Origin: Rhodobacterales bacterium
Lineage (GTDB): Bacteria > Pseudomonadota > Alphaproteobacteria > Rhodobacterales > Rhodobacteraceae
Reading direction: 5' to 3'
Assembly: GCA_002748265.1 (NCBI GenBank)
Contig: PDRY01000012.1
Location: forward strand, 434,001-498,000
DNA length: 64,000 bases
The notes under the pieces: model-generated
Databases searched by the model: none
What the model was told of the DNA's origin: nothing
The model's input: only the letters and a program-made list of their open reading frames with translations
Translations under genes and position numbers: made by a program
Part shown: in pieces, positions 19,488-43,346 of the stretch
Layout of the letters: every line of letters begins with the position of its first letter
Position numbering within the stretch: position 1 is the first letter of the stretch

Positions 19488-21626
19488 ATGACGAAGCGCG
19501 GTTTTCCGATGTGGGCAATTGGGGTGATTGTCACGATTTTGGCCTGTGTGCCGTTGGCGGTGCATGCGGAAAAATACGCGCTCATCATTGCCAATCAGAG
19601 TTACGAGAATGTCGAGTCGCTAGAAAACACGCGGGCAGACGCACGCGCCTATCGCGATATGTTGGAAAACTTCGGGTATGACACGCGTGAGTTCCATCTG
19701 AATCTTGGTCAAAGCCAGATGCTGGACATGATCGACCGTGTCGCAGAGCGGATCGATTCTGGCGACGAAGTTGTGTTTGTTTATTCCGGCCATGGTTGGA
19801 GCGACGGCGCGGAGAATTTTCTGGTTCCCGTGGATGCGCCCAAATCAGGGCGCGAAAGCTTTTTGGCTGCCCGATCCGTTTCTCTGGAAAATCAGGTTTT
19901 GAGAAGCTTCAAGAGAGCGGGCGCCAGACTGACCGTTGCGATCATCGACGCGTGCCGTAACAATCCCTTCACACCGGCGCGCGGCAGCAAGTCCGTCGGC
20001 ATCGCCCGAGGGCTTGCACTTAGCCCTGGTCCAGAGGGTAGTTTTACCATCTTTTCGGCAGGCCGAGGCGAAGAGGCGCTTGACAGGCTGCCTGATGATA
20101 GTGCCGACACCACGCTCTCTGTGTTCTCACGAGTGTTCATCCCGCTAGTAGAGGCGAAACTGCCGCTGGAAATTGCGATGAGCCGGGCCCAACTGGAAAC
20201 GCGGGATCTGGCGATCAGCTATGGTGGCCATGCCCAGAACCCAGCCTATTCCGATGAAACTCCGGGATTCACCTGCCTCGCCGATAGATGCAGCACTCAG
20301 ATGCCCGTCGCAGACGCGGTCGGGGGGACCTGCGACCAACTTCATGCAGCGGCGGAGCGCGCTGACAGGTGCTACGCATGGGAGGCTTTTGTCGATCAAT
20401 GTCCGGCCCATCCGTTATTTCCTGCCGGACGGCGCTATGTCCGTAAGCATTGTGAGGAAGATGTGCCTCTGATTGTGGGGGAAGAAGAAGACCCGATGTA
20501 TCTCGTTCCAGTGTTAGAGACCTACAGCTCATCTGAACGGCCTGCTGCGGAAGGCCTTTGCCAGAGGGAAACGGGAGCAGATGCGATCAGCGCCTGTTTG
20601 TCGTTGGGCTCTATGTACGAGTCCGATCAGGGATTGGTTCGCCAGGACTTTGAGGAGGCTGTAAAATTCTATGAACGCGCCTGTGACATCGGAATTGCAT
20701 CGGCTAGCCTTGACGGTTTGTATGGCTGCGACAGGGCTGGGTATCTGTTGCGAACTAAGATCAAGTCTGACGAACGAACGTTCGCGGTTTTGGCTCACGG
20801 GTGTCTTTATCGGACCGATAATGTGGACCGAGGTCAAGCCTGCAATGGTGCCGGTCTCGCAGCTGATCGCTCAGGTGACGCCTTTAATGTTTCTGCTGAC
20901 AGCATCGCAAAGCTATTTGTCGAAGCCTGTGAGGCGGGCTACCCTTATGGATGTGGAAATGTTACATCTGTCTACCCCCTGCCAGAGAGGGCTGATTTTT
21001 CATTCGCGCGGGTCGAAGGCCTTTTGCGGGATGGCTGCTATGGAGTTAACTTCTCCAAAAACACATTGCGAGATATTGGAGTGCAGTACAGCTGTAAGGA
21101 GCTGGGGCAATTCCTCATCTCATTCGGGCCGGACACAACTAAGAACCTCGAGGAGGCATTTGCGGCTTTTGATCGTTCATGCCTCAACGGACCAGATCGG
21201 GGTGAAAGTTGTGAACAAGCTGCGAACTATGCCGCTTCGATGATTGAACCGGCACCGCCGCATCCGTTCGAAGTGGAAAAGCTCTTGAATATGGCGTGCT
21301 CGCTTGACCGGACTGACGCCTGTTTGCGGTATCTTGATGAAAGGGACCGTGAGTATCGAGATGATATAGATCTTATCGAAGAGCCGGTTTTGGTGTTCGA
21401 TGACTACTCTGCCCCCGAATGGATGACATATCGCAAGATTATCGAGCGCTTGCTTGATCGCCAGTCGCTTGTATTTGCGCGCGGCTTACCAAATGCGGCG
21501 CGGTTTCGACTCGCAAATACTCAGGATGTTCTAAAGAGCAGGGGCCTCTATTCGGGCGCCATCGACGGTATCTGGGGGCCTGGCACGAAACGGGCTGTCG
21601 AGGCGGCCTGTGGATGCCGGATCTGA
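19488..21626 (+). CDS. Secreted caspase (C14) with Sel1-like repeats and peptidoglycan-binding domain
   Basis: A 712-residue protein from the ATG at 19488, which has GGGAGAAGGA before it; the longer ORF from 19368 lacks a signal. The order is signal peptide (1-27), caspase domain, Cys-rich Sel1-like repeats (about 340-590, e.g. FEEAVKFYERACDIG), and a peptidoglycan-binding fold at the end (LKSRGLYSGAIDGIWGPGTK). Catalytic residues are His102 in YSGHGW and Cys156 in IIDACRNN. Predicted periplasmic protease. Divergent from sngA. Its Sel1-PG-binding layout is shared with the 33541 gene and the 36507 pseudogene. Confidence 0.85.
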   Translation: MTKRGFPMWAIGVIVTILACVPLAVHAEKYALIIANQSYENVESLENTRADARAYRDMLENFGYDTREFHLNLGQSQMLDMIDRVAERIDSGDEVVFVYSGHGWSDGAENFLVPVDAPKSGRESFLAARSVSLENQVLRSFKRAGARLTVAIIDACRNNPFTPARGSKSVGIARGLALSPGPEGSFTIFSAGRGEEALDRLPDDSADTTLSVFSRVFIPLVEAKLPLEIAMSRAQLETRDLAISYGGHAQNPAYSDETPGFTCLADRCSTQMPVADAVGGTCDQLHAAAERADRCYAWEAFVDQCPAHPLFPAGRRYVRKHCEEDVPLIVGEEEDPMYLVPVLETYSSSERPAAEGLCQRETGADAISACLSLGSMYESDQGLVRQDFEEAVKFYERACDIGIASASLDGLYGCDRAGYLLRTKIKSDERTFAVLAHGCLYRTDNVDRGQACNGAGLAADRSGDAFNVSADSIAKLFVEACEAGYPYGCGNVTSVYPLPERADFSFARVEGLLRDGCYGVNFSKNTLRDIGVQYSCKELGQFLISFGPDTTKNLEEAFAAFDRSCLNGPDRGESCEQAANYAASMIEPAPPHPFEVEKLLNMACSLDRTDACLRYLDERDREYRDDIDLIEEPVLVFDDYSAPEWMTYRKIIERLLDRQSLVFARGLPNAARFRLANTQDVLKSRGLYSGAIDGIWGPGTKRAVEAACGCRI

Positions 21627-21641
21627 CGTGACCACATAAAA

Positions 21642-21669
21642 AAGCCGCCCTCACGAGGTAGGGCGGCTT
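21642..21669 (-). terminator. Terminator of the DUF4384/caspase operon
   Basis: AAGCCGCCCT and AGGGCGGCTT form a 10-bp stem with an 8-base loop. Read on the minus strand it is followed by a run of T, so it ends the operon whose last gene stops at 21690. It may also serve the plus-strand caspase gene ending at 21626. Confidence 0.8.
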
Positions 21670-21689
21670 CGATTTCGGTTTCTACGCGA

Positions 21690-22577
21690 TCACCAGACGC
21701 CGAGCAGGGACATCACGCGCGTGGTCAGATAGCCCGTCGGAGCCAGTCCGCCTGCGCCCTGCCACTTGGTCAGGGCCCGGCGGGTGTTGGGGCCAAAGAT
21801 CCCGTCCACTGCCCCTGCGCTGAACCCCCGGCTGTTGAGAGCCAGCTGCACAGCGCGTCTTTCCGCGTGCGTCAGGCCGAGGTTGCGTTCCACATCCACG
21901 GCCGTCCGGACCGGAGTTGCTTCGGCGTTGCGCGCCTCGCGGATGTTGAGCAAGAGATTGTAGCTAGACCAGTCACGCTGGTTTGCCAGCACGACTTCAA
22001 TATCCTTGGACAGCTCTTGTGCCGAGACAGTGGCGGATTTGAACGGTCCGGCCGGAGTAAAGACCGTGTTGGCGAAGATCGGATCCGGCGTATCGGTGAC
22101 GATCACCTTGACCAGCTCGATGCCCTCCGGGCCTGATGCTCTCAGGTTGTAGTCAGCACCTTCGCCGGGCACACGGACCAGCTCACCGGCCTTGATCTGA
22201 TTGCCGTTTGAGTGGGCATTGGGATAGATCTGGTGGACCTGGCCGCTTGTCCCCACGTCCAGCAGCCAGAGGTACCCATCTTGGGTTGCCCGAATGCTGA
22301 GATCAACCAGCTCGCCCGGCGCGTAGGTGTTGTTCTCCCGGCTTGTCCAGGCTGCCACGCGGAGCCCTGTTTCAGAAGGTGCAGCGGTCTGGACCCCGAG
22401 GGCGGTCGCCGGAAGAACAGTCGCCACAGCCACCTGTTCAGGGATCAGATCGCGGGTGATACCGGCCATGGCCGGAGCGGTGGCCTGAGGGGTTTCTTGC
22501 GCCGCCCCCATCATGGGGGCGGCGACGGCGAAGGTGGCCGTGGCCAAGATCGCAAAGTGTGTCATCGAAATTTTCAT
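21690..22577 (-). CDS. Secreted DUF4384 protein with peptidoglycan-binding domain
   Basis: A 295-residue protein with signal peptide MKISMTHFAILATATFAVAA. Residues about 70-165 form a DUF4384 domain (TQDGYLWLLDVGTSGQVHQI, then YPNAHSNGNQIKAGE). The C-terminus is a peptidoglycan-binding domain (LALNSRGFSAGAVDGIFGPN). No protease motif. Last gene of an operon with a caspase and another DUF4384 protein. Likely a wall-associated partner of the secreted caspases. Confidence 0.8.
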   Translation of the reverse strand: MKISMTHFAILATATFAVAAPMMGAAQETPQATAPAMAGITRDLIPEQVAVATVLPATALGVQTAAPSETGLRVAAWTSRENNTYAPGELVDLSIRATQDGYLWLLDVGTSGQVHQIYPNAHSNGNQIKAGELVRVPGEGADYNLRASGPEGIELVKVIVTDTPDPIFANTVFTPAGPFKSATVSAQELSKDIEVVLANQRDWSSYNLLLNIREARNAEATPVRTAVDVERNLGLTHAERRAVQLALNSRGFSAGAVDGIFGPNTRRALTKWQGAGGLAPTGYLTTRVMSLLGVW

Positions 22578-22602
22578 CGTTCTGTTCCTTTCAGTTTAAG
22601 AG

Positions 22603-24012
22603 TTACTTGCCGAAACGGATGTTGTTCAGCAGGCGGGTGTCGCCGGCGAGGGCAGGGTCCATGCGGCCTTGGCTCGCTTCGCGGGTCAGGCGATCGGTCT
22701 TGTCGAACAAATCCGCGAAGCTGTCGCCGGGCTGCATCTGGCCAAGGGCTGCGACCAGCTGCATGGTGAAGATGCCGCCGCCGGCCACCTCGAGCGCGTA
22801 CTGATCTTCCTGCACCGCAGCGAACGCCGTCCCTTTGATGCCGTTCAGACCGCCGCTATCGAGACCGCCGCCGATGTCAGAGCCTTGCAGCTCTTCGTCG
22901 ATCAGGCTTTTGGCCATCGGTTGCACCGCGTCGATCGCGATCGAGCTGAGCGCCTTTTGCTTGGCCCCGATGACGGAGAAGTTGAGCGCTTTCGACAGAC
23001 CGCCAGAATGGCACGCATCCATGATGGAGATGACGTTATCGGTCGGCAGCGCCGCGACGAGTTTGGACCACTCATCATCCCGGATGACGTTGGACACGCG
23101 CAGCCCACTCACTTCGGCATCCATGGGGATGAACACTTCATCGAGCAAGTCTGCTTCGTCGCCATCGTCGTCGGTGACCACACTCCCATGCCCGCTATAG
23201 TACAGCATGACCTGATCGCCGGGCTTTGCATTGTCGCGGAGCCAAGCCATCCCATCGTAGAAGTCCTTGCGATAGGTCTCCTCGCTCAGGCGGACATTGG
23301 AGGCAGGGACGTCAAAGGCCGTTTGCATCGCACGGGTGAAGTTGCGCGCATCGTCATCCGTATGGGCCAGGCCAGCGACGTTCGCGCCCATGGCAAAAAT
23401 CCAGACATTGCCGCCATCAATCCCTTCGACGGACGGGACGTTCCCCGACGTGACCGCCGACTGGTTCGGGCGGACCGATGCATTCGGGTCAACGATCTCA
23501 TAGCTGACGGTGACCGTTTCCCAATTGGAAGACGCTTCAACATGGAGATCCTTGCCCAGAGCGCGACGCATCTCGCGGTTCAGCTTAGGAAGGCTGTCGG
23601 CGGATTTGGGCTGCTGCTCCAAATGACGGGTCCAGATGAGCATCGAAGTTTCGATGCCGCCGGGACCGGTCACCCGATACTGGTAGGGCGCGCCATCGGG
23701 CCCTGCGCAGGTCTCGGTATAAGCTTCCACCCAGATCGGGTCCGTGGACGCCGTGTAGGGGAAGATGCGGTGCACAGAGCCGCTGGTGCCGAAGTTGTAC
23801 ATAGAGACGTAGCCGGACTTCGAGCTTTCGAAGCAGAAGGACATGGTGTCTCCAACCTCGACGACGCTGTCGGATGCCCGCAGAACGATCTGAACATCGG
23901 GGTTGTTGTTGGCCGGAAGGACGTCGACCACAAGATCGCGGGTCTGCGCCTCGGCGGTGGCGGTGATCATGGACGCCGCGATTGCAGCAGCGGAAAAGAT
24001 AGAGGTTTTCAT
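22603..24012 (-). CDS. Secreted DUF4384-caspase protein
   Basis: A 469-residue protein; the ATG at 24012 has GAAGGGA upstream and is preferred over a TTG 6 codons earlier. The order is signal peptide (1-22), DUF4384 domain (about 45-130: SGYVSMYNFGTSGSVHRIFP), then a caspase domain. His275 lies in YYSGHGS and Cys334 in IMDACHSGG. The acidic stretch DDDGDEADLLDE after the His resembles metacaspase-type prokaryotic caspases. It starts 4 bp after the stop of the upstream DUF4384 gene. Confidence 0.85.
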   Translation of the reverse strand: MKTSIFSAAAIAASMITATAEAQTRDLVVDVLPANNNPDVQIVLRASDSVVEVGDTMSFCFESSKSGYVSMYNFGTSGSVHRIFPYTASTDPIWVEAYTETCAGPDGAPYQYRVTGPGGIETSMLIWTRHLEQQPKSADSLPKLNREMRRALGKDLHVEASSNWETVTVSYEIVDPNASVRPNQSAVTSGNVPSVEGIDGGNVWIFAMGANVAGLAHTDDDARNFTRAMQTAFDVPASNVRLSEETYRKDFYDGMAWLRDNAKPGDQVMLYYSGHGSVVTDDDGDEADLLDEVFIPMDAEVSGLRVSNVIRDDEWSKLVAALPTDNVISIMDACHSGGLSKALNFSVIGAKQKALSSIAIDAVQPMAKSLIDEELQGSDIGGGLDSGGLNGIKGTAFAAVQEDQYALEVAGGGIFTMQLVAALGQMQPGDSFADLFDKTDRLTREASQGRMDPALAGDTRLLNNIRFGK

Positions 24013-24016
24013 TAGA

Positions 24017-25081
24017 TTAGTTCCCTTCAAAAGTTACGTTGACGCGGGCTTCGGCGGCGTAGCTGTCTGGCAAGGCAAAGAACGCCTGGCCGTCGAGATC
24101 GCTGAAAACCATTGGAGAGGTTGTCGGGATCACGCGGATTGGTTCACCGCGGAAACCCATGGCTTGGGCGTCTTCTTTGGAGATCGAAGACGGCACGCGG
24201 GTGATGATCGCGCGCAGGTCGAGCGCCTGGCTGTCCTCGGTCAGAGTGAAAGGACCGACCGCATAGATCTGGTCTTCGACCACGAAGTTCTCGACATGGC
24301 TGTCATTCGGGCGCAGACGCTCGATGAACCCCTCGTCGGTCTTCTGGAACAGCGAGAAGTAACCGTCCCGCGTCGCCGTGTAGTAGAGCTGCACCTGCGC
24401 GCCGGGTTTGATTTCGCCGCTCTCATCGAGAGACTCGACCCACATCCGCAGATCGTATTCCGGTACAGGCTCAGGCTTCAGTTCCAGCGCCGTCAGCAGG
24501 AAGTCACGGACAGGCTCTTCGAGGATGTCGATCTCATCAGGAGCAACCTTAATGCTGCGCTCCGCGATGATTTCAGCCTCGTCGTCGGTGTTGCCCTGGC
24601 TAACCATGTTCAGCAGCTTCAGCTGAACTTCGACCAGACCAGCGCCGTTACCCAAAAGACCTGCTTCGGTCAGGCTGTCCGGGATATGGACGGCCAGACG
24701 GTAAGCGCTACGCACTGCGCCGGGGTCCGCAGGGGTTTCTGCGTGGCTCGGCATGTCTTCGGGCGACAGCACCGGCTGCGCACGATTTACCAAAGCCAGC
24801 CCCGGCACACTCCGCGTCGAACGGGACAGCACAGTCAGAATCTGCTGCTTGAGTTCTGCAGTCACCTCTGCATCGCTGTCGCCGTCTTCCGGCGCCGCCT
24901 CATCGAGGCCTCCGCCAGTCAGCACAAGCTCCATAGCTTGCGTGGCCTGTTGGGTTTCATTCGCGTCTGTGGTTTCGACGGCGATGCCTTCGGCGGGGAT
25001 GAGTTCCGCTTGAGCCGGAGCGACCAGCGCCGCAATGGCCAGAGCAGAGCAGAGCCCCGTGTTGATGATGAAGGTTTTCAT
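24017..25081 (-). CDS. Secreted DUF4384-containing protein
   Basis: A 354-residue protein from MKTFIINTGLCSALAIAALV, preceded by AAAGGAGA. After the signal peptide is an acidic, low-complexity stretch (GLDEAAPEDGDSDAEV), then a helical middle part, then a C-terminal DUF4384-like domain (ATRDGYFSLFQKTDEGFIER). No catalytic motif seen. First gene of a three-gene unit with the caspase at 22603 and the DUF4384 protein at 21690. A CGTCCCGTAG element lies 37 bp upstream. Confidence 0.72.
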   Translation of the reverse strand: MKTFIINTGLCSALAIAALVAPAQAELIPAEGIAVETTDANETQQATQAMELVLTGGGLDEAAPEDGDSDAEVTAELKQQILTVLSRSTRSVPGLALVNRAQPVLSPEDMPSHAETPADPGAVRSAYRLAVHIPDSLTEAGLLGNGAGLVEVQLKLLNMVSQGNTDDEAEIIAERSIKVAPDEIDILEEPVRDFLLTALELKPEPVPEYDLRMWVESLDESGEIKPGAQVQLYYTATRDGYFSLFQKTDEGFIERLRPNDSHVENFVVEDQIYAVGPFTLTEDSQALDLRAIITRVPSSISKEDAQAMGFRGEPIRVIPTTSPMVFSDLDGQAFFALPDSYAAEARVNVTFEGN

Positions 25082-25117
25082 TGGCGTCCATCTCCTTTGC
25101 TTGTGGAACACTGATAG

Positions 25118-25213: not shown

Positions 25214-25810
25214 CTACTCTAAGAAAAGTTCGACAATGCACAGGGCTAGGGCATCGCGTTCTGCATTTTCGGGCGGTGCGATCAGGTCTTGAGCGGGTGC
25301 GAACTGCACGGATCCACTGATCCCCTTACGAGGTGCCTGATACTTATCCAGCTCGATCTCATGCAAATCTAAGGGGAGCTGAGTGAGGTCAACCAAGGCC
25401 CCGCCTTCAATTGTCATGCGCGCACTCTCAAGGCTGGCTAAGCCGGAAGGGGCTGTCACAAGAAGCAGAAGCGCCTGACCATATTTCATGTGGGGTGCGA
25501 ACCAACCTGCGTCCACGTCGAGCATGTCGGTCTGACGGTGCCGTTCGATCAGGAATGCATAATGTGCTTTTGAAGAGGCACGGTGCGACAGCATGATTGC
25601 CGGAGACGAAGACAAGGTAACCTTATTGACACCTCCGGCAGATAAGATGTGCAGTTTCTGTTCTTGCTCGTCATATCTTTCGATGAGCTGCCATGGGCAC
25701 GAGGGGTCGGACAGATCCGCTAGGGCTGGTGGCGCAATGGCTCCGACCAGCAGGGCAAGCGTGGTAATGAGACCGTTGCGGGACATTGTGGAGGCTACTC
25801 TTCGGTGCAT
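25214..25810 (-). CDS. Small secreted protein, unknown function
   Basis: A 198-residue protein (or 190 from an internal Met at 25786) with signal peptide NGLITTLALLVGAIAPPALA. The mature part begins with a Cys-containing segment (PSCPWQLIERYDE) and ends with another Cys (LCIVELFLE). It overlaps the end of the Lon-like gene, so it belongs to that operon. Not recognised. Being secreted and coupled to a membrane-anchored protease-like protein, it could be its substrate, inhibitor or sensor; that is inference. Confidence 0.6.
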   Translation of the reverse strand: MHRRVASTMSRNGLITTLALLVGAIAPPALADLSDPSCPWQLIERYDEQEQKLHILSAGGVNKVTLSSSPAIMLSHRASSKAHYAFLIERHRQTDMLDVDAGWFAPHMKYGQALLLLVTAPSGLASLESARMTIEGGALVDLTQLPLDLHEIELDKYQAPRKGISGSVQFAPAQDLIAPPENAERDALALCIVELFLE

Positions 25811-27141
25811 GGGCTCTTTGCGACTGAACGGTAGCGATATGCCACAAAGCCAGGATAGCGGTCACGGAGAAATGCTTCTGCCCTATTGAGCCTAGCTTCG
25901 CCCTCAAGATCCTCGATGGCCGAGTTTAGATCGTCGATTACATCGCTGGTGGATGTGTGTGTGCGCTCGGCAGTCAGAACGATCAATAGGTCCTCTGCCG
26001 GAGGACGGACGGGAATAATGGCCACATTATCCGGCCCGTTTTCTGTGCCGGTCACCCCATTAAGTCCACGAAACATCTTTTGATCGACCACGACTGGATC
26101 GCTCTGTGAACCAACACCGACAATCGATAAGGCACCGCGTTCCAACAGTGTTGCCTCTAGGTGAGCAGGGTGGATCTCAGGGTGGATGAGCAGCGTTTCG
26201 TTGATGGCGATGAGGGGTTGGCTGGTCACGCGATCTCTACAGGTGGGGCGGATGACATACTGGTTCAGTAGGTTATCATAACGCGCCCGTGTTGGTGCGC
26301 CAGCAGGAATATTGAATGTTCGAAGTCCGCCGAATGCGATGTCAATCGGTCTATTCACGCACCAAGCATTTATGCCAATTGCCGCCCAAACTAAAATGGC
26401 GAGCGTGAGGGTCAACATTCCGAACTTGAAACGGCGATCCATCCGAGGAGCCCAGCGCTTATCGGACTCCACGATCTCTTTGAAAGCATCCAAGGGCATG
26501 ACCTTGAGCGAGATCTGGTGGGGGTCGCAGAGAGACTGGATGCGCTCCAGCTCACGTTCTATGTCCTGATCACGGTCAGGGTCGTTGGGATCATAGTTCT
26601 GGCGCGGAAAGAGCACGTGAACGGAGCGTTTCTTCAGTTCATTGGCATTCGTTTCAAGGTAGTCCGAGAACAGCTCGAGCTTCTCTTTCAGGTGACCGAT
26701 TTCCTGAATAGGCAGTTTGCTGTTGCTGCTTGTATCCGTGATCACTTTACCTGTGGCAAAAACAATGTCTGCGGTATCGTAAAACTTGTGATATAAGAAA
26801 GCAGCAGCCAATCCCAGGCCCGCGCTGTCCTGATTTCCTCGACCGACGTGGCCGTTATCACTTTTCGTAAGGCGCAGGAAGCTAGGGCGCGGCTTATAAG
26901 CGAGCCGGGAGGGCCAGCCAGGGCACCGCGCATCATAAAACTGATCGGTCGCGGCGCGCACTCCCTCGGCAATGCTATCAAGCCCAACGGGGTAAAGCTC
27001 GGCGACGTCTGCCGAAAAACCGTCTAACACCGTTTCCGGCGGCGACTCTTGCGGTTGGATCGAAATAAGCGCTCCATTCCCCTTCGCGCCGGAAGCGAAG
27101 GGGATTAGAATTGTCAATTCATCCGTTTTCTCTGCGATCAT
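25795..27141 (-). CDS. Membrane-anchored Lon (S16)-like protease-fold protein
   Basis: A 448-residue protein from the ATG at 27141, which overlaps the upstream stop by 4 bp. Residues about 10-190 resemble the Lon proteolytic domain: DSAGLGLAAAFL around Ser106 corresponds to the Lon GPSAG motif, and IGHLKEKL around Lys152 to the Lon GGLKEKL motif. The Ser-Lys spacing (46) is close to E. coli Lon (43). HVLFPRQN parallels the Lon VLIPxEN strand. There is no AAA+ domain. One transmembrane helix (about 238-261) precedes a 185-residue domain that is probably periplasmic. It may sense the secreted proteases and signal by cleavage. Confidence 0.68.
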   Translation of the reverse strand: MIAEKTDELTILIPFASGAKGNGALISIQPQESPPETVLDGFSADVAELYPVGLDSIAEGVRAATDQFYDARCPGWPSRLAYKPRPSFLRLTKSDNGHVGRGNQDSAGLGLAAAFLYHKFYDTADIVFATGKVITDTSSNSKLPIQEIGHLKEKLELFSDYLETNANELKKRSVHVLFPRQNYDPNDPDRDQDIERELERIQSLCDPHQISLKVMPLDAFKEIVESDKRWAPRMDRRFKFGMLTLTLAILVWAAIGINAWCVNRPIDIAFGGLRTFNIPAGAPTRARYDNLLNQYVIRPTCRDRVTSQPLIAINETLLIHPEIHPAHLEATLLERGALSIVGVGSQSDPVVVDQKMFRGLNGVTGTENGPDNVAIIPVRPPAEDLLIVLTAERTHTSTSDVIDDLNSAIEDLEGEARLNRAEAFLRDRYPGFVAYRYRSVAKSPCTEE

Positions 27142-27605
27142 ACCGTGGCGATGTATAGGCGGAACATCTGCCACGTCGAATCCGTCCATGGATCCTCTGC
27201 TACCTCGATCTCGAGCGTGGCGGTGCCCATGTGGTCGAAATCGATGGATTCGGGCGCGCGATCCGCTTGCGGGAAAGACAGCATGCCAGACTGATCGGCA
27301 AACTGGCGCATGCCGCGCGGGCCAATGGCCTGCAACGTGAGGCGAATAGCCCGCTGCGGTTCATTTGCCATGTCTTCCATTGTGATCCGTAGCATACGAT
27401 CAGAATCCATAACGCCTTCAGTTGGAAAGCGGCGCGTTCCTGCATCGGCTGCGAGCACTTGGAAGTCGAAAGAGGCTGGAGCGTGTTCAAGCATGAACGC
27501 GTCATACTCTTTCGATGTGCGCCAGAAGTCCAATCGGCTTATAAGTTCATCCGAGACCTTGCTTATGATCCCAGCGAGTTCTTTGTTTCTTGAGTCGTCC
27601 TGCAT
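27138..27605 (-). CDS. Hypothetical protein, first gene of the Lon-like operon
   Basis: A 155-residue soluble protein with an N-terminal helical part and a beta-rich C-terminal part ending ATLEIEVAEDPWTDSTWQMF. No known motif. AGAGGATGAC precedes the start. CATCCCGTAG lies 34 bp upstream, and its stop overlaps the Lon-like start (ATGA). The tight coupling suggests a regulatory or adaptor subunit of the Lon-like protein. Not recognised. Confidence 0.6.
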   Translation of the reverse strand: MQDDSRNKELAGIISKVSDELISRLDFWRTSKEYDAFMLEHAPASFDFQVLAADAGTRRFPTEGVMDSDRMLRITMEDMANEPQRAIRLTLQAIGPRGMRQFADQSGMLSFPQADRAPESIDFDHMGTATLEIEVAEDPWTDSTWQMFRLYIATV

Positions 27606-27638
27606 GTCATCCTCTCGATTTCAGGGTGGTGCTATGAA

Positions 27639-27657: not shown

Positions 27658-28848
27658 TTAAAACTCACCTTTTTCTCTGAATTGCATCGCTTTAGCTTCT
27701 AAGGCCTCCAAAAATGCCGGTAGTGCGAAGATTATCTGCCCGGAATCTTTGGCGTTTTCTTTAACTATATCATAGGCTGCTTCAACAGCCACCTTTTCTA
27801 AGAGAAGCTCCAAAAACTCGATTTCGTGGGGGGTAAATGCATCGGCTTCTTTAGCCTTCTCCAAGAAAATACTGCGATCGGTTTCTGTGCTTTCCTCTTG
27901 GACTTCGGTCTCTTCTGAATCCTCTGACGCTTTCCAATCATCAGAGTCGTATAAGTCTGGCGCCTTTTTTTTGGGACCGTACTCCAATACCGGGTCAGGC
28001 CTTGAAATAATAGTTCTCCAGAGTTCCGAATTACAAAACTCTTCAATCGTGTACTTTGGCACCCCTGCTACGGCATCCCAGGATGATTGCATGAGGGGCA
28101 CCATTTCATCGCCAAATACATTCTCCGACGGTTGTGACGCCGCGGGTGCGCTTTTGTGCATTGCGTGAAGATCTGAAATCAGTGTTTTGATTCTTTTGAG
28201 CTGAGAATGACTTGGTTTGCCTATGTCGTCCTCAATGTCACCTGTTTTGGCCCACTCTGATGGGTTAAGCCCCATCTGCATCAAAAGCTCGACATATTGC
28301 GACCTTGTGTCCATCACTCTGAGAATGAGACGAAACGTTTCCCAGACATCATGCTCTTCGGCCTCTCGTAAATGTTCGGGGCATTTGCGAAAAATTTCTT
28401 CAAGAGAAAACGTCTTCTCCGTTATGTCGAATGGAGGTTCGGATTTTTCGACCGACAAAGCCAGAAGATGCTCCATCAGTCTTTCGGGCGTATAAGGTTT
28501 TGGTCTCTGCCGCTGGGTCTCTCGCGCAATTGCGTATTCCCAATAAAGGCCTGCAGCCTCCCTGGCGACCTCCCAATGTTCGGCTGACCACTTTGAAAGC
28601 TCAGTTCCAGTGGGTAGTAATTGCGAGTAATATGTCAAATGGCTTGCGTATTTCCTTGAGGAAAGTAACAGGAAAGCCTTTTCAAAAAACCAAGCGAACT
28701 GACGCTGCTGGAGGCTGTCTGGAATTCTAGGAAGAGCCTGCACTTCTTTATAATCTCGTGCGAGAACGCTTGGTGGGGGTGTGTTACGTTCTTGATCATG
28801 CAGCAGTCGAGCTAGGAAACCACAGAATTTTTGCCTGTATTCCTTCAT
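27658..28848 (-). CDS. Hypothetical acidic protein
   Basis: About 396 residues from MKEYRQKFCGFLARLLHDQE; a GTG start 16 codons upstream is less likely because AGGG precedes the ATG. The protein is soluble and helical, with a strongly acidic linker (SDDWKASEDSEETEVQEEST) near residue 320 and a C-terminal helical region with LLLEKVAVEAAYDIV. No catalytic motif seen. AT-richer than the core genes, consistent with acquired DNA. It precedes the Lon-like operon but a motif-bearing gap separates them. Not recognised. Confidence 0.55.
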   Translation of the reverse strand: MKEYRQKFCGFLARLLHDQERNTPPPSVLARDYKEVQALPRIPDSLQQRQFAWFFEKAFLLLSSRKYASHLTYYSQLLPTGTELSKWSAEHWEVAREAAGLYWEYAIARETQRQRPKPYTPERLMEHLLALSVEKSEPPFDITEKTFSLEEIFRKCPEHLREAEEHDVWETFRLILRVMDTRSQYVELLMQMGLNPSEWAKTGDIEDDIGKPSHSQLKRIKTLISDLHAMHKSAPAASQPSENVFGDEMVPLMQSSWDAVAGVPKYTIEEFCNSELWRTIISRPDPVLEYGPKKKAPDLYDSDDWKASEDSEETEVQEESTETDRSIFLEKAKEADAFTPHEIEFLELLLEKVAVEAAYDIVKENAKDSGQIIFALPAFLEALEAKAMQFREKGEF

Positions 28849-28957
28849 TGAGAAAACCCTATGATTTGCGCCTCGTTTGTGCCCACGCTTGACCACGGCG
28901 CCGAAGTGAGCATGTTTTACCTGCTCATATGAGCCTTAGCATTATGGGGGACATCCA

Positions 28958-33397: not shown

Positions 33398-33428
33398 AGG
33401 TCCCCCCGTTTTTTGTGTCTTGGGAGAT

Positions 33429-33438
33429 CTACGGGATG
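33429..33438 (-). promoter_or_regulatory. Conserved CATCCCGTAG element upstream of the papain-like operon
   Basis: CATCCCGTAG on the minus strand, 32 bp before the 33397 start, in the divergent region between this operon and the 975-residue caspase gene. Its position supports the shorter start for the membrane protein. Confidence 0.6.
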
Positions 33439-33540
33439 CTTTTCGGGGCTTTGGTCTGCGCCGGGAGCTTTTTCCTACCAATTTGCAATGGGGCTACTAC
33501 AATAAGACTGTCATGGCCGAATAACCTTTAAGGGGTTCGT

Positions 33541-36468: not shown

Positions 36469-36506
36469 GTCAGCACCTGGCTTGTTGATTTGGGCTGTGG
36501 TCTGGA

Positions 36507-39357
36507 TTACGAGCAGGATGACACCTGTCGTAAGCCTGCGAGCGTGCCTGGCCCGTAGTCTCCATCAATTGCCTTGTCGTACACACCCTTTGCCTGCAGT
36601 GCCGCTTGAACGGCTCGAATAGCTGATTTGGATGCAAATGACATAACGGAGCTTCTTCATCAAGGTCCGCGCAGGAACTCGAATCGAAGTTTGACAGTCC
36701 TTCCATGAAGCTTGTCGCCATGTCCGCGAGGTCGGTTCCTGAAAAGCGTTCTGAGCCTTCCTCCTGATCGAACAGCCATTCACAGCTATATAGTGAACCG
36801 AGTGCGCATCCTTTGCTGAACGACCGATAGGCGTCTGCGCGCGCGCCTTCATCAGCCTGATATCTCCCCAATTGAGCGCAAGAATCTCCACTGTCTTCTC
36901 CGCGCTCCAGATCGCACCCCCGAGAGGCCATCGTCTTGGCGCCCGCGAGATCCCCCAATCCTTCAAGGGTGACGCTGGCGTTGAAACAAGCCCACTCGTA
37001 CTCCAGTTCGCAAGACTTCATGTGCAGCTCGCTAGCACGGCGCGGGTCATTTCTGAAAGCTCCTTCCCCCTCGTCACGCATACGGGCGAGATGATAGCAC
37101 GCGCGTCCGGCTCCGCGGCTTCTGTCCATGTCACAGGCCTTGGCGAGAACCTCTGCTGCGCGGGCGAAATCCTGGTGTGGCTTGTCTGATCGAAGGTTTG
37201 AGCCGACATTCGAACAAGACCACGCATTGCCCAGATCACATCCTTGCTGGTAGTATTCTATCGCAGTTGCGAGATCCTGATCGAGCTGACCCTCACCGTA
37301 TCTATGCATAACTCCCAGACTTAGGCAGGCATCGGCACTGCCCTCCCCATCTTTCAAATCACAGCCCTTTTCGAAATACACGGCGGCCTGATCAAGATCC
37401 TGAATGCTCTTAATGTCCCTCAGGTTACCTGCAGCATTTGAGCACCCCAAGGCTCACCCAATTCGCAAGCGCGGATGTATAGGTCATTTGCAGTTGCAAG
37501 ACTGGCTTCAAATGGCCCCTCACCGCGCCTGTTCATAATGCCCAGATTATTGCACGCGGAGCCGCTTGCTTTGCCGGCATCCATCTCGCACCCTTTTTCA
37601 AGAAACACTGCAGCCTTTTCATAGTCACGGACGGTGGGATCGGTACGCAGTTGGTGTCCAGCAGCGCCGCAGCCATTGGCATTGCCAAGATCGCAGGCTT
37701 TCAGGTACAATTCTGTCGCAGCAGGAATACTGAGTTGCAAATCAGCTTCACCATTCGCATGCATGCGCCCCAATCGGAAGCATGACTTGCCGCTTCCAGC
37801 ACTATCACCCATCTCGCACCCTTTCTCGAGAATTTGGAGTGCCTGCGTTTCGTTGCGGAGGCCTTCATTTGTTCGATAGAGAAGCCCCGCGTTACTACAC
37901 CCCCAAGCTACGCCTAGCGAACATGCTTCGGTGTAAAACTTGATCGCGCGGGCAGCGCTACGCGGAAAGCCGTCCGTTCCAGTGTCGTAGTCGTACCCTA
38001 GCATATTGCAGGCAAATCCACTCCCGCGGCCTTCGGACATGTTACAGGCTTTTTAGAGCAGCTCAGTTGCTTGATCTGGATCGTCGCCCTGTAAGATCGC
38101 TCCTGCAGAGCGACATGCCGCTGCCTTGTTCTGTTCTTGGCAGAGGGACTTATAGATTTCCAGTGCTGCATCGAGTTGGCTTTCCTCGCCGCCCGCGTGC
38201 AACGCCCGCGCCAGTTGATAGGCGACACGTTCCGACGCTGGCGCGGCATTCAGTGCTGCGCGGCAGGCAGGAATGGCGGCATCTGTGTCGATCTTTTCAA
38301 ATGGCACCAAGGAAATACGCGACGCATACTCAGCTTGATAGTATTCCGAAGCGGCAAGTCGGTCGCACGCCAACACCTGCTCGGCCGGAGTGAGGCGGTC
38401 CCCATCGTTGCCACAGTTGGAGACCCGGTTGCGGAGAAGGGACTGGGCAAGCTTATGTTAGCCGCAGCTCTCCAAGTAAGGCTCCCAGTCAAGGCTGCAC
38501 CAATCAGTGAGCTCTGACAGGGCCGCTTCCAATTGCCTGCCGCATTGCAGGTAGGTGATGTCTTCGCGGACTTCGCAGGCTGCGGTCAGACATGCGCCGC
38601 CCGCATATGCGATCCGTATCGCAGGGACTTGGTCGTGCTCCACGGACTTGGCGAGCCGGGTTGTCTGGACCTGAGCCTCTTCGAATGTATCCTGTAGGCT
38701 TATTTCTTCTTCCAATGCCGGGATCAAGAAGCGAGCAAAAACGGAAAGCTCCCCATCGTTGGGAGCTTCACCAGGAAGATAATCGAGCGCGGTCTGACCT
38801 TGGCGGGCGGAATAGACGACGACGCTACCGTCGCCGCCGCGCGACAGCTTGAGCCCGCGCGTTGGCAGCCCGGACCGATCCGTGTCAGGCAGATCAAAGG
38901 GATTGTTCCGGCAGGCGTCGATCACCGCAAAGGTCAGCTTTGCCTTGGCTGATTCAATCGGGCGCAGAACGGCCTCATCCACACGGATCGACTCACTGGC
39001 GAGGAAATTCTGGGATCCGCGCGCAGCGGCGTCCACGGGGATCAGGTAATTTCGGGTGCCGTCGCTCCAGCCATGCCCGGAATAGACAACCACGACCCTG
39101 TCGCCCTCTTCGATCTGGCGGTGAAAATGGTCCAAAGTTTGGTAGAAGGTTGCTTTGTCGACGTCGACAGCAAGCTGCACACTATACCCTAGTGTTTGAA
39201 GCAGTTCGCGATAGGCTTCTGCGTCTTGTTTCGGACTGCGGAGCGAGGTGATGTTGTCATAGGAACCATTGCCAATCACCAATGCGATATTCTCCGCGCG
39301 CACCGTTTTGGGTAGCCACATGAAAAGGCAAAGGACTGACATAATAAGTCGAAACAT
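36507..39357 (-). pseudogene. Degraded copy of the caspase-Sel1-peptidoglycan-binding gene
   Basis: One ancestral gene of about 950 codons, now broken at four places. The signal peptide and caspase domain (His95, Cys149 intact) run to an in-frame TAA at 38458. Sel1 repeats continue in the same frame to a second TAA at 38053-38055 (ELL-stop-KACNMSEG). At about 37440 a one-base loss shifts the frame (EPWG continues as CSNAAGN in the next frame). Near 36650 another shift moves the peptidoglycan-binding end (LQAKGVYDKAIDGDYGPGTL, ending at 36507) to a third frame. The first 299 codons could still make a secreted caspase without its wall-binding tail. Confidence 0.85.
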
Positions 39358-39479
39358 TGCTACGAATTCCTCCTGAAAACGGATAAAATCCGCTATCTAG
39401 CCTCTCGTCTCGTTGACGGTTTGTTGCAATTCTCTGTCGTGTGCACTCGCATTTTGGATCAATGGGTTGGTACGACGCC

Positions 39480-40907
39480 TTATCTTGAAATCACGTAGTC
39501 GACACTCGCTAGTGACCAATGCACGGCGCGGTTGGTATCGGCTTCGTGCCAGACAGACATCAGATGATGCGCCAGTTCAGAGAGGTAGGTCTCTTCATTG
39601 GGCATGACCGAAAGGTCTCGGGTACGGCTCAGCAGGTCATCGAGCGGTAGGTTGTCGCGTGTCACGATGGCAACCAGTTTGCCAGTGCCGACCTCTTCGG
39701 CAAAGAACTCACAACCGTAACCTGCAGCGGGAATGGTCAGGCTGGCGCCTGGCTGAATCTTGCGGGAGTTATGCTCACACACGCTGGGGAAAAGCTGCAC
39801 CACACCACCGTTGTTTCGAACGTCAAGCAGGATGAGATACCCGCCATCAGGTGCCGTTACCCGCGCGCGCCATACATCTCCGACACGCATGTTTTTTCGA
39901 GGAAGCAGGTCAAGGAAGACATTCGATGGTTGTTGCTGCGGCAACAAATCCGAAGGGCTGACGTCATTTGGGCCAGAGGGCGTTTCAGAAAATCCAGCCC
40001 AAGACAGCAGGTCTAGCCCCATGGACCCCGTCGGCGCTTCAAGTGTCGGGGTCATAGAGCCTGAGGCGCAGGGCGCGTGTCGGCAGTATTCTGCTGAACT
40101 CGCTCGGAGATGCCCAAAAAGCTCGGCCACTGAAATCTTGCCATTTCCGTTTACATCCGCCGCGCCTTCCAGACCTTCGGCGAAGCGACGCGTGAACACG
40201 CCCTGTGCGGCATTTTCGGGGGTGGTTTCATCCACATGTGCGACTTCCTGCGCCGTCACTGCTGTCCATGCCATCACGTTCGAGAAGGATTCGAACGGGG
40301 TGGTCTCGAGGCGGTGAGCGATGGCGACTTGCGCACCTGGATAGGTGTCTGCCGGGTTCGGGACATAGCGACCTGGAATCGAGGCAGGATTCAGGTCGCG
40401 GGTCATTGTTCCTGAGTTGCAGGAGTCCAACACGAGCATAACCGATCGTCCATTCAGACGGGAGAGCAGGTTATGCATTTGGTCGTCTGTCACGATGTTG
40501 CTGATGCCGGTCTTTGTGAGTGTTGCGTCGAATGGGACAAGAACTTCATCGCGCTGATCTGCCTCGTCGCCGTCTTCATCGAGGATTTGCGCACCATGCC
40601 CGGAGTAAGAAATGAGCACGCGATCGCCGACTGATGTACCTTCGATCAGAAAACTCTCAATTGTCGCGACGATTCCCTGGGCCGTCGCCTCGCCATCCAC
40701 AAGTGTTCTGACAGATGAAATGTTGAACACGTCGCGGGCAACGCGCTCCATTGTTTTCGCATCATTGGCGGAGCCGATCAGTTGTAAGGATTCGGCAAGA
40801 TGGGGATACTTGTCGACGCCAATAATAAGGGCGCGGTCTTCGGCTGCAGTCGGAGCGGCTAGGAACGGCAATACGCCAATGCTTAGCGTGGTCAAGAGCG
40901 GTTTCAC
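39480..40907 (-). CDS. Secreted caspase with C-terminal DUF4384 domain
   Basis: A 475-residue protein. Signal peptide (1-22), caspase domain with His104 (YSGHGAQ), the acidic DEDGDEADQRDE stretch, and Cys163 (VLDSCNSG). The C-terminal part (about 325-440) is DUF4384-like (PDGGYLILLDVRNNGGVVQL). Thus it is the reverse domain order of the 22603 protein. It overlaps the upstream caspase gene by 4 bp. Last gene of an OmpA-caspase-caspase operon. Confidence 0.86.
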   Translation of the reverse strand: MKPLLTTLSIGVLPFLAAPTAAEDRALIIGVDKYPHLAESLQLIGSANDAKTMERVARDVFNISSVRTLVDGEATAQGIVATIESFLIEGTSVGDRVLISYSGHGAQILDEDGDEADQRDEVLVPFDATLTKTGISNIVTDDQMHNLLSRLNGRSVMLVLDSCNSGTMTRDLNPASIPGRYVPNPADTYPGAQVAIAHRLETTPFESFSNVMAWTAVTAQEVAHVDETTPENAAQGVFTRRFAEGLEGAADVNGNGKISVAELFGHLRASSAEYCRHAPCASGSMTPTLEAPTGSMGLDLLSWAGFSETPSGPNDVSPSDLLPQQQPSNVFLDLLPRKNMRVGDVWRARVTAPDGGYLILLDVRNNGGVVQLFPSVCEHNSRKIQPGASLTIPAAGYGCEFFAEEVGTGKLVAIVTRDNLPLDDLLSRTRDLSVMPNEETYLSELAHHLMSVWHEADTNRAVHWSLASVDYVISR

Positions 40908-42427
40908 TTTGCCTCCGTAGTGTAAAGTTCTTGGAGGCCAATTTTTGCTTTTCCTGCAAGGAGGATGTCCAGCTGCTCCGATAAATTCTGGGCCGTGTTC
41001 GTTGGCGAAAGTAGGTCCTGCATTGCGTTTCCAAGCGGCGACTTTGACAGGATCCCAACAACATGATCTGCACCAAAAGGCGGTGTGACGATCAGGTCTG
41101 CCACCACGACGCTTTTGGATCCGGTGAATGCCTTATCTATGAAAAGTGGTTGGATCTCCGATCCAGAAGAAAGATTAAATAGCGTCAGGTAGGGGAAGTC
41201 TGGATCAGGCGTCAGGCGCAGCTGGAGATTATTGCCCCGACGATGGATCGTTCGGGTGGGGACAATCTCCATAGAGACGGGTTCGTAGCGCATAGCAAGC
41301 GATTTGAGTTCGGTCAGAGTGTGCCATTTATTGACTACGGCCTGAAGACCAAGCGGCGCGACGTGCTCCGCAGCGACATCGCCAAGCTGTGTGGTCACAG
41401 TGCGAGACTCTGCATCGTATGTCAAAAGAGCGACTTCGCCAGGATTGGGGCGTCGCGCATATTGGAGGTTATTCCAGACTACAGCGCTCTGATCATGGAC
41501 TACATCCAAAACGATCTTTGGTCCCACTTCGATCGGGACATTGGTGTCGAAGCGATCAAAAACCGTGGTGTCAAACAGCTCCGATGATATCGAAATGGAC
41601 GGGATCTGCCGCCCTTCTGTCTGCGTCCTGACGGCTGTTTGAACGAAGCTGCCAATTTCCCGAAACGACGCTCCATTATGATTAAGGTCGCCCGCACCTT
41701 CGAGTGCTCTGGCAAACGCCCAACTCAAGGCGCCTCGCATCATACCGTCAATAGGGACTTCCACGGCGACATTATTGTCGGAGGCGGCCCCAAGCACTGC
41801 GATGCCACTATAGGTTAGTAACTCGTCTGGAATTTCGGCGACGTCCGCCTCTTGCGTGATCGCAGGTGGAGCGTATTCCGTTGCGTATCTTGCGCCATAA
41901 GGTTCACCTCCAAGATAGGCGCGGATCGGCGTACCTGAGTGACAGGAATCGGCCACGTAGATTACGTTAGCTCCACGCTGTGCCGCTGCGTTGAGCCACA
42001 TCCCGATTTCGTCGTCCAGAATTCGTTCTGTACCGTTTGAAAGGCGATCATAGCCGCTAAGGATAAGAACTTCGTCGGAGCCATCACGCTCAGACCCAGC
42101 CACTTTTTCAGGCTCTTGCGCGCCATGTCCCGCAAAACTCAGTATGATCGTATCACCGTCGTCCAACTGCGCGACAAGGTCGAACCAAGACTGTCGGATC
42201 GCGTCCGCTGTTGCTTTTTTGTCTAGCAACAGGACCGTCTTCGTTGCTCCGAGTGCATCGAGCGTTGAGGCAATGTCCCGTGCATCATTCACCGCCCCAC
42301 GCAGATCTGTGAACGACTGGTACTGGTTCACCCCGATTGACAGGCCATAAACGTCCTGCGCCAACAGTGATGAAGAAAGAGAAGAAAACAAGAAGGCTGT
42401 CGTGGCTGCCACGATTCGCTTTTTCAT
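40904..42427 (-). CDS. Secreted caspase with DUF4384-like C-terminal region
   Basis: A 507-residue protein. Signal peptide (1-23), caspase domain with His101 (SFAGHGAQE) and Cys162 (VADSCHSG). The C-terminal half contains a diverged DUF4384-like segment (FPYLTLFNLSSGSEIQPLF). The sequence differs enough from the 39480 caspase to suggest different specificity. It starts 13 bp after the OmpA-domain gene and overlaps the following caspase gene by 4 bp. Confidence 0.84.
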   Translation of the reverse strand: MKKRIVAATTAFLFSSLSSSLLAQDVYGLSIGVNQYQSFTDLRGAVNDARDIASTLDALGATKTVLLLDKKATADAIRQSWFDLVAQLDDGDTIILSFAGHGAQEPEKVAGSERDGSDEVLILSGYDRLSNGTERILDDEIGMWLNAAAQRGANVIYVADSCHSGTPIRAYLGGEPYGARYATEYAPPAITQEADVAEIPDELLTYSGIAVLGAASDNNVAVEVPIDGMMRGALSWAFARALEGAGDLNHNGASFREIGSFVQTAVRTQTEGRQIPSISISSELFDTTVFDRFDTNVPIEVGPKIVLDVVHDQSAVVWNNLQYARRPNPGEVALLTYDAESRTVTTQLGDVAAEHVAPLGLQAVVNKWHTLTELKSLAMRYEPVSMEIVPTRTIHRRGNNLQLRLTPDPDFPYLTLFNLSSGSEIQPLFIDKAFTGSKSVVVADLIVTPPFGADHVVGILSKSPLGNAMQDLLSPTNTAQNLSEQLDILLAGKAKIGLQELYTTEAK

Positions 42428-42440
42428 AGGAGCATCACAA

Positions 42441-43346
42441 TCAGTTATCGATCACGAGTTCGACGCGGCGGCGCAACTGATGAATTTCGTCAATCGAGTA
42501 GAGGTCTGGGTCGTCCAACGCCACTGTGACCTGCTCGCCTCTCCCGTCGGTTTGGACATCTCCGAGATAGCCTCGTTTGATCAAAAAGTCTCTCACGGCC
42601 TCGGCGCGTTTGAGTGATAGCGACAAGTTGTAGGCGTCGGGGCCTTGGGGATCTGTATGGCCGATAAGGGTGATGTTCGGACTTCCTTGCCGCTCCAGTG
42701 TCGTCAGCATATCCTCAGCGGCCTCAATTCCGAAATCTTCAAGCTCCGCTGAGTTGTAGGTAAAACGCACAGGGATCGCGCGGCGCCTCACCCCATGCCC
42801 TCGAATGCTAAGGCGGCCCAAGCCGCCAACCTCTCCGCGGGCGCGCGTTGCGACGATATAGTCTGGCGCAAGCGAGCGAGCGATTGTGGCATCAGCAAAA
42901 ATCTTTCTGATCACCTCGATGCTCGGCGCTTCCGCGACCGAGGCAACTTCGATGTCATCAATCGCCTCTTGAAACAGATGAACAGCGCTCGAGTAATCTT
43001 TCTTCGCAAGCTTTATTTCGGCCAAAGATGCTGTAACTTGCCATGGTCGTCCATACTGAAGCGCTTGATCTAGCAGCTGTTCCGCAGTTTCCGTATCCAC
43101 ACGAGGGCTTCGTGCGGCTGATAAGTGAGCGTAGGCTGTCCATCGGCCCAAGGAGGCCAAAGACCCGCTTGAACAACCGGGATCAGTTTCTCCTTGTGAA
43201 AAGAGTCTAATAGAGCCGTCAGCATCCCCTCGCTCAGCCATCGCTTTCATGCGCGATTCTAGGTCATTGCAATCTGCAAATAGTGGTGAAGCGGCAAATG
43301 CCGATACGATCCAGACGGGCCGCAATGCGAAAGTTCCAAACATCAT
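42441..43346 (-). CDS. OmpA-domain envelope protein
   Basis: About 301 residues from an ATG at 43346 with GAGAGG upstream; a TTG six codons earlier is less likely. Signal peptide (FALRPVWIVSAFAASPLFAD), a helical repeat-like middle, and a C-terminal OmpA/MotB peptidoglycan-binding domain (NITLIGHTDPQGPDAYNLSL, then SLKRAEAVRDFLIKRGY). First gene of the operon with two caspases, so it probably tethers or organises them at the cell wall. Last gene of element 1. Confidence 0.82.
   Translation of the reverse strand: MMFGTFALRPVWIVSAFAASPLFADCNDLESRMKAMAERGDADGSIRLFSQGETDPGCSSGSLASLGRWTAYAHLSAARSPRVDTETAEQLLDQALQYGRPWQVTASLAEIKLAKKDYSSAVHLFQEAIDDIEVASVAEAPSIEVIRKIFADATIARSLAPDYIVATRARGEVGGLGRLSIRGHGVRRRAIPVRFTYNSAELEDFGIEAAEDMLTTLERQGSPNITLIGHTDPQGPDAYNLSLSLKRAEAVRDFLIKRGYLGDVQTDGRGEQVTVALDDPDLYSIDEIHQLRRRVELVIDN

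Follow-up and report, generated by a model that had tools for sequence, protein, structure and literature searches.

A 64,000-nucleotide stretch of a Rhodobacterales genome (contig PDRY01000012.1, positions 434,001 to 498,000; hereafter the window) holds, between positions 19488 and 43346, a cluster of genes for exported caspase homologues and their DUF4384, OmpA, and Lon-like companions. Three of these genes, for an OmpA-domain protein, a caspase referred to as caspase-507, and a caspase-DUF4384 protein, form a core operon (OmpA > caspase-507 > caspase-DUF4384) that is a conserved unit and not a chance pile-up. Tentatively, and with somewhat less than even confidence, we read the cluster as a protease relay in the cell envelope that is made up of several proteins, travels on mobile DNA as accessory cargo, and answers envelope damage or invasion. 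Gene content, gene order, predicted export, conserved active-site residues, and mobile context back this reading.

Relatives of caspase-507 were compared in 84 loci, of which 80 were found with two exact peptide patterns (the best 80 of 139 relatives) and four lie on plasmids. The sample is biased, with near-copies among Stappiaceae and Azospirillum and some loci ending at contig ends, and open reading frames (ORFs) in these loci were called by simple in-house rules. The core trio recurs at roughly 25 to 45% identity. On the same strand, OmpA adjoins caspase-507 in 34 loci and caspase-DUF4384 does so in 28, with both partners adjacent in 25 and either in 37. An OmpA homologue is present in 38 loci altogether, and its 34 adjacencies compare with 2.7 predicted by random placement under an overlap rule slightly stricter than that of the observed count. 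The homologues are thus not scattered singly, the outcome that an initial annotation of this DNA had named as pointing to chance. Such a pile-up of paralogues through tandem duplication and island shuffling would accord with the 33 to 47% identity among five of the window caspases and with the frequency of multi-caspase genomes in the family (a Peptidase_C14 match in 72 of 149 genomes, with a maximum of 17 in one, so that many caspases per genome are not unusual). Since gene order persists at roughly 25 to 45% identity, and the full operon recurs, we reject chance for the core. As an account of the whole cluster, pile-up is extremely improbable; it is largely refuted for the core and the Lon-like cassette described below and could still hold for the papain-like gene set and single Sel1-type caspases.

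The initial annotation had named recurrence of caspase, DUF4384, Lon-like, and OmpA genes beside defense genes as a sign of a unit. The full mix does occur in locus L107, where a seven-gene operon (OmpA > caspase-507 > caspase-DUF4384 > 428 aa > 146 aa > Lon-like > 272 aa) is followed by a Sel1-like caspase. Parts of it occur in L089 (caspase-507, caspase-DUF4384, a DUF4384 protein, and the Lon-like cassette, with no OmpA gene within the stretch examined) and in L015 (OmpA, DUF4384-PG_binding, and five caspases, without a Lon-like gene). The second half of this criterion fared differently, as the neighbor scan described below showed no recurrent defense genes. An Azospirillum plasmid locus (L011, NZ_CP039644.1) keeps the core order and encodes full-length homologues of OmpA and of the three caspases assigned below to group two, at 34 to 36% identity; its core sits between a tubulin-like gene (Tubulin_2 plus GYF_2) and conjugation type IV secretion genes. 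Judged by record titles, Alpha- and Gammaproteobacteria have the full core, and the OmpA > caspase-507 pair was also seen in a bin of Desulfobulbaceae, on a contig that stops there. With only the best candidates per genome scored, caspase-507 reached E 1e-40 in 4 of 385 genomes of the class: the window genome, G055, G230, and G435. OmpA directly adjoins caspase-507 in G055 and G230 and lies in the same locus without being adjacent in G435, which is apparently the same contig as locus L026 and hence not independent. In the caspase-507 tree, the OmpA/caspase-DUF4384 context is scattered over many branches and is missing from two big clades, one of 20 rows nearly all from Stappiaceae and one of 10 rows from Azospirillum. 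Another genus of the family (G055; loci L095 and L096) carries a second cluster, with OmpA > caspase-507 and six more caspases in about 25 kb, together with transposase-like genes (identified by eye) and a relative of the CHASE2-cyclase cluster.

Components of the core have precedents. In a Rhizobium operon (L013), OmpA and DUF4384 are combined within one protein (annotated DUF4384), and the caspase-DUF4384 partner is fused to trypsin. This partner, which also has Gln in place of the active-site His, belongs to the protein type described in Rhizobiales as trypsin-p20-DUF4384 "QC" pseudo-orthocaspases (PMC6426788); the accessible text of that paper handles these as single proteins and makes no mention of OmpA. 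An earlier survey (Asplund-Samuelsson et al. 2012, PMC3501461) described OmpA in 14 metacaspase operons and a protease and protease-inhibition operon conserved in four Rhizobium strains. It also noted that some metacaspases have likely signal peptides and a wall-binding domain. Those operons resemble the cluster in OmpA linkage, export signals, and a wall-binding domain but differ from it in having, as far as the accessible text describes them, no defined gene set, no Lon-like cassette, and at most three metacaspases each; the string "duf" is absent from the accessible main text, unlike the DUF4384-rich cluster here. The initial annotation had known of no described system of this composition. 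That statement stands for the full module of core plus Lon-like cassette, which was not found in the literature searched (mainly open-access, top-ranked matches), and needs qualifying for its parts, given the OmpA-metacaspase and Rhizobium protease/inhibitor operons.

The genes of the cluster are as follows.

42441..43364, minus strand: core gene 1, exported protein with a C-terminal OmpA domain (Pfam OmpA 6e-11)
40904..42427, minus strand: core gene 2, caspase-507, exported, its C-terminal DUF4384 domain diverged (Pfam C14 4e-18)
39480..40907, minus strand: core gene 3, exported caspase-DUF4384 (Pfam C14 1.6e-16, DUF4384 1.8e-8)
19488..21626, plus strand: exported caspase carrying a Sel1-like repeat and, at the C terminus, a weak PG_binding_1 (Pfam C14 5e-20; Sel1 and PG_binding_1 just under cut-off)
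21690..22577, minus strand: exported DUF4384 and PG_binding_1 protein (Pfam 1.5e-20 and 8e-13)
22603..24030, minus strand: exported DUF4384-caspase (Pfam C14 2.5e-16, DUF4384 1e-10)
24017..25111, minus strand: exported DUF4384 protein of 364 aa (Pfam 6e-7, over cut-off)
25214..25810, minus strand: cassette protein Z, exported, 198 aa (no Pfam match; positional homologue in L106)
25795..27189, minus strand: cassette Lon-like protein (profile similarity to Lon; homologues in L089, L106, and L107)
27138..27605, minus strand: cassette protein Y, 155 aa, without signal peptide (homologue in L089; alignment of four)
27658..28896, minus strand: cassette protein X, 412 aa, without signal peptide (position kept in four loci)
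28958..29707, plus strand: exported pseudocaspase with GNG and DAG (Pfam C14 7e-18; residues read from the translation)
29768..31021, plus strand: exported caspase whose C-terminal extension has no Pfam match (Pfam C14 2e-24)
31028..33481, minus strand: three-gene set of a 344-aa hydrophobic protein, a 108-aa protein, and a papain-like protease (Peptidase_C1 E 9e-5, over cut-off)
33541..36468, plus strand: exported caspase with Sel1 repeats and a weak PG_binding_1 (Pfam C14 2e-25, Sel1 3e-32)
36470..39357, minus strand: broken caspase-Sel1 gene (open over the caspase part, 38458-39357; Sel1 part split over several frames)

Peptidase_C14 scored over its cut-off in all eight candidate ORFs in a Pfam scan of the window, bearing out the eight caspase-fold ORFs of the initial annotation, and Pfam matches equally back its two extra DUF4384 proteins (21690 and 24017), OmpA protein (42441), and papain-like protease (31028). 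Whole-genome Pfam searches gave totals of eight C14 and four DUF4384 matches, every one inside the cluster; the host assembly is 88% complete, and further genes of both families could be missing from it. The DUF4384-caspase at 22603..24030 has a homologue on a plasmid of Azospirillum TSA2s (34% over 489 aa). The three genes of the papain-like set overlap one another.

Signal peptides were scored with a simple in-house heuristic at start codons of our choosing. All eight caspases passed, as had been claimed for them, and so did both extra DUF4384 proteins and the OmpA, 198-aa, and 344-aa proteins; the Lon-like, 155-aa, 412-aa, papain-like, and 108-aa proteins were negative, as were eight proteins tested from the Shango, integrase, and CBASS regions described below. 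A location in the periplasm at the cell wall, as first suggested, fits the predicted export signals and the OmpA and PG_binding_1 domains.

The eight caspases are not close copies and fall into two groups. Group one (19488, 28958, 29768, 33541, and 38458) shares 33 to 47% identity, and group two (22603, 39480, and 40904) shares 27 to 36%, only across 105 to 254 residues. Translations show GHG and DxC in seven of the eight, matching the seven intact His and Cys motifs reported initially, with GNG and DAG instead at 28958-29707. DUF4384 is present on all three group-two caspases, in two by Pfam and in caspase-507 by profile comparison; the C terminus of caspase-507 aligned to the DUF4384 region of caspase-DUF4384 with hhalign E 4e-12 and a score of 70, compared with at most 15 in 20 column shuffles.

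The two core caspases differ in how well they keep their active sites. Both His and Cys of caspase-507 are retained in 84 of 84 homologous loci, where the His was partly selected by the search pattern and the Cys was free of that selection, and an export signal was predicted by the heuristic in 82 of the 84 homologues (starts picked near the aligned start). Among the 33 caspase-DUF4384 ORFs in the relative loci, only 22 retain both residues. Because one protein stays intact and the other repeatedly loses its active site, the comparison suggests that they form a regulatory pair. A structure model of caspase-507 built from 41 sequences had a mean pLDDT of 85.5, and its top Foldseek matches in the PDB were GSU0716, the MALT1 caspase-Ig3 region, and metacaspase 4. 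As the MALT1 matches across both domains had a root mean square deviation near 20, the predicted fold supports the domain types and not their arrangement. Searches of viral contigs returned two partial caspase matches only.

The second recurring part of the cluster is a cassette of a protein of about 410 aa (X), one of about 150 aa (Y), a Lon-like membrane protein, and an exported protein (Z), which was found in three further genomes, each time beside caspases. The Lon-like protein appears to consist of a Lon-like domain at its N terminus, a single hydrophobic helix around residues 255 to 277, and a C-terminal domain. Support for the Lon assignment of the initial annotation comes from a four-sequence profile, which scored 46 (E 3e-6) against 25 Lon domains with hhalign, 30 column shuffles reaching at most 23, and from S122 and K170, which are invariant in the four homologues and align with SAG and with KEK of Lon, one Lys of which is catalytic. 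The assignment is not backed by Pfam, Lon_C, and PDB profile searches, which gave no Lon match, or by a pairwise comparison with the genome's own Lon, whose score of 38 stood against a shuffled mean of 35 and was reached by 567 of 2,000 shuffles. Since Pfam finds no AAA+ ATPase domain in it, the protein is at most Lon-like. The best PDB match, myelin regulatory factor (E 0.046), was taken as chance. YlbL of B. subtilis is a membrane-bound Lon-type protease without an AAA+ domain. Like YlbL, the cassette protein would join a peptidase domain of Lon type to a membrane helix and lacks an ATPase; the two differ in domain order and probably in membrane side.

The window Lon-like sequence as query found nothing in 384 other genomes of the class, in genome contigs, or in plasmids. 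The homologue in L089 surfaced by phmmer, and the resulting two-sequence profile, run against 393 other genomes of the family, added two more; when 250 class genomes were scanned with a four-sequence profile, the window genome was the only hit. L106, which has the cassette beside a caspase, and L107 were found by the Lon profile alone, whereas L089 was found through its caspase. The Lon-like proteins of L106 and L107 had no plasmid matches, and viral contigs held no Lon-like relative. Among the smaller cassette proteins, Y aligned to its L089 homologue with a score of 64 (shuffled mean, 29; reached by none of 5,000 shuffles), and X matched its L089 counterpart weakly (reached by 30 of 2,000 shuffles). 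Protein Z was not above shuffles against its L089 counterpart and is 33% identical in alignment to its positional homologue in L106, and the 364-aa DUF4384 protein was not above shuffles against its counterpart in L089. A PDB profile search with X gave nothing convincing. In Azospirillum TSA2s, two proteins (407 and 151 aa) encoded next to a tubulin-like gene resemble X and Y in size only, with no match at blastp E 0.01.

How these parts might work together can be outlined from their domains. OmpA and PG_binding_1 would hold the caspases at the peptidoglycan, and DUF4384, a beta-rich domain beside the caspase fold, could act as a contact or activation domain through which active and degenerate caspases pair. 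Caspase-DUF4384 may regulate caspase-507 as activator or decoy, with the Sel1-type caspases as additional effectors. The Lon-like protein would couple a periplasmic event to the cytoplasm, or the reverse, across the inner membrane. The presumed trigger is an envelope damaged or penetrated by a phage or rival, and the presumed output is self-limited growth or arrest, lysis, or repair.

The mobile context of the cluster is given by the following features, listed in window numbering.

12995..13043, no strand: attL-like end, 49-bp exact copy of the tRNA-Arg(CCT) 3' end (blastn 100% over 49 bp to L098:3255-3303)
13033..13362, plus strand: copy 1 of a 330-bp direct repeat, with a truncated integrase 5' end (95.5% to 43503-43832)
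13562..19364, minus strand: Shango SngC, SngB, and SngA (PADLOC E 6e-236, 3e-170, and 2e-51)
43503..43832, plus strand: copy 2 of the 330-bp direct repeat, integrase upstream region and 5' end (repeat comparison)
43652..44836, plus strand: tyrosine integrase of the neighboring tandem element (Pfam Phage_integrase 8e-18, Arm-DNA-bind_3 1e-20)

Together these delimit a composite 54-kb island (12995-67303) at tRNA-Arg(CCT), whose right end lies past the window in L098; the tRNA-Arg(cct) gene was located by ARAGORN at L098:3256-3332, about 67256-67332 in window numbering and beyond the window end. An integrase, the 49-bp tRNA-Arg repeat, and the 330-bp repeat are all present, as in integrative islands, and G+C content is 0.557 in the cluster compared with 0.625 to 0.662 in four 20-kb stretches of the same contig. 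The island apparently consists of two elements in tandem at one tRNA. Element A (about 13.0 to 43.5 kb) would comprise Shango and the entire caspase cluster, with the copy 1 integrase as a truncated remnant, and element B (about 43.5 to 67.3 kb) an integrase, CBASS (cyclase, E2, and patatin), MATE, glyoxalase-like, and NaeI-like restriction-modification genes. Within element B, the stretch 46607-53327 holds a CBASS-like operon (cyclase, E2, and patatin effector) and, after it, a 1,263-aa protein that Pfam does not match and PADLOC matches only weakly (PD-Lambda-4_A), a perfect 19-nt tandem duplication lies at 57899-57936, and an NaeI-like restriction endonuclease adjoins a C5 cytosine methylase at 58471-60438.

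Shango is the sole other cargo of element A among the ORFs listed, and element B adds CBASS and the NaeI-like system. This placement would suit an antiphage abortive system in which infection is sensed by the X-Y-Lon cassette on the cytoplasmic side and the periplasmic caspases are then set free to lyse the cell. A cytoplasmic Lon domain is predicted by the positive-inside rule because a basic flank precedes the helix. We consider such a system quite unlikely: known defense neighbors are rare around relatives of the core, and by eye the flanks of L089, L106, and L107 seem to hold transport or ordinary genes. To our knowledge, the Canu, type III CRISPR, gasdermin/CARD, NLR, and Thoeris caspase systems all work inside the cell. 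Antiphage roles have been shown for caspases of all five (PMC12799240). Among these, Canu loci pair a caspase with a nuclease, and the caspase CanA has a C-terminal Ig-like fold like that of MALT1 (PMC12799240), recalling the caspase-507 model, which also matches MALT1 caspase-Ig3, at the deviation given above. Canu has a gated nuclease, whereas the cluster caspases have predicted export signals and no nuclease domain was found by Pfam among the 20 cluster proteins or pieces scanned, a search that a very diverged nuclease would escape. The iSTAND/VMAP ternary conflict systems, built of MoxR and vWA proteins plus VMAP or iSTAND (PMC7159879), are similar in combining caspase, trypsin, FGE-like, OmpA, and Sel1 domains near membrane and wall and different in requiring MoxR/vWA; the same 20-protein scan gave no AAA or vWA match.

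Neighboring genes of the relatives were drawn from 203 candidate ORFs within 6 kb of 34 of the 37 core-type loci (three near-copies omitted). The nearest five per locus gave 150 ORFs, of which 117 were scanned and 33 omitted as spurious or too long, with no matched control loci. Among the 117 proteins, the commonest Pfam families were DUF4384 (five), serpin (four), TPR (four), and type IV leader peptidase (four). In the 84-locus set, serpin and trypsin homologues each occur in six loci (either in seven, both in five), and serpin and trypsin-like genes both share the locus of the core in L013, L026, L054, L067, and L079; the window genome itself has no serpin. CHASE2-cyclase homologues occur in 25 of the 84 loci, 20 of them in the Stappiaceae clade, and FGE, kinase, and WD40 genes recur near the core in smaller numbers. 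Genes for TssG, TssM, or TssL of the type VI secretion system (T6SS) are found in 27 of 84 loci, 26 of these within the two well-supported clades that lack the OmpA/caspase-DUF4384 context. T6SS genes lie near caspase-507 in seven Azospirillum loci (L012, L014, L030, L048, L053, L056, and L093) and in 19 TssG-bearing loci of the Stappiaceae clade, where a CHASE2 cyclase and also an M23 peptidase accompany them.

The strongest competitor of the relay is a role in envelope processing or in the control of secretion. Here, exported caspases would mature surface or secretion-system proteins (e.g., of type VI secretion or pili) as envelope housekeeping, and the defense-island placement would be incidental. 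The T6SS-linked clades point this way, as do the genes for T2SSE, FGE-sulfatase, and type IV leader peptidase that several Rhodobacteraceae-labeled loci have close to the core and the scarcity of defense genes among the neighbors. We nonetheless judge it unlikely in view of the patchy distribution of caspase-507 (the 4 of 385 class genomes above), the mobile island in the window and plasmids elsewhere, and the host genome, which, at 88% completeness, has no TssG match. The T6SS-adjoining relatives could also be read as attack or kin recognition, with caspases acting on neighboring cells and the pseudocaspase and other members of this diverged paralogue family as immunity or specificity factors. 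That seems very unlikely: Pfam recognized no delivery domain on the window proteins, TssG is again missing from the genome, and the wall-binding domains speak for retention.

Several results weigh against the relay that we favor. Neither OmpA nor caspase-DUF4384 lies beside caspase-507 in 47 of 84 loci, so caspase-507 can occur without both partners, though contig ends truncate some of the loci, and the window caspase-507 is itself a long branch (1.94) in no well-supported set of the tree. The T6SS genes in 27 of 84 loci suggest another role in some lineages. The Lon-like gene is present in just 1 of 84 caspase-507 loci, and four genomes are known to have the cassette, of which three (the window genome, G008, and G017) belong to one family; X, Y, and Z have no Pfam match, and the single-sequence structure prediction of the Lon-like protein was unusable (pLDDT 38). 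The three-gene papain-like set has no convincing relative in the 84 loci, and the papain-like protein has none in plasmids either; nor do the relatives show a clear counterpart of the window pseudocaspase or of the broken caspase. PADLOC at E 1e-20 matched 21 families among the 117 neighbors, each through a single member and one of them the Pycsar cyclase model PycC, and thus, with no matched control, revealed no recurrent association of the core with defense genes.

Defense is accordingly the simplest reading of the window island, with its Shango, CBASS, and NaeI-like systems, but it is suggested by this island alone and the relatives give it no support. Of the functions first proposed for the cluster (envelope-breach defense, allorecognition, or lysis), the island keeps the first in view, and the relatives, with little known defense and some loci near T6SS or serpin and trypsin genes, do not follow it. 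A bolder version of the relay, which we regard as rather doubtful, is that wall-tethered initiator, decoy, and effector caspases, joined in some lineages by trypsin and serpin, detect an envelope breach and signal it to the cytoplasm by way of the Lon-like protein in the membrane. It would have spread on mobile defense islands and would be a bacterial counterpart of extracellular proteolytic cascades.

If the relay reading is right, a conserved operon of exported caspases and wall-binding partners would locate regulated proteolysis, perhaps in the form of a cascade, in the periplasm, and DUF4384, a domain without an assigned function, would gain a testable role. The seven-gene operon of L107 offers a compact unit that could be transferred to a laboratory strain.

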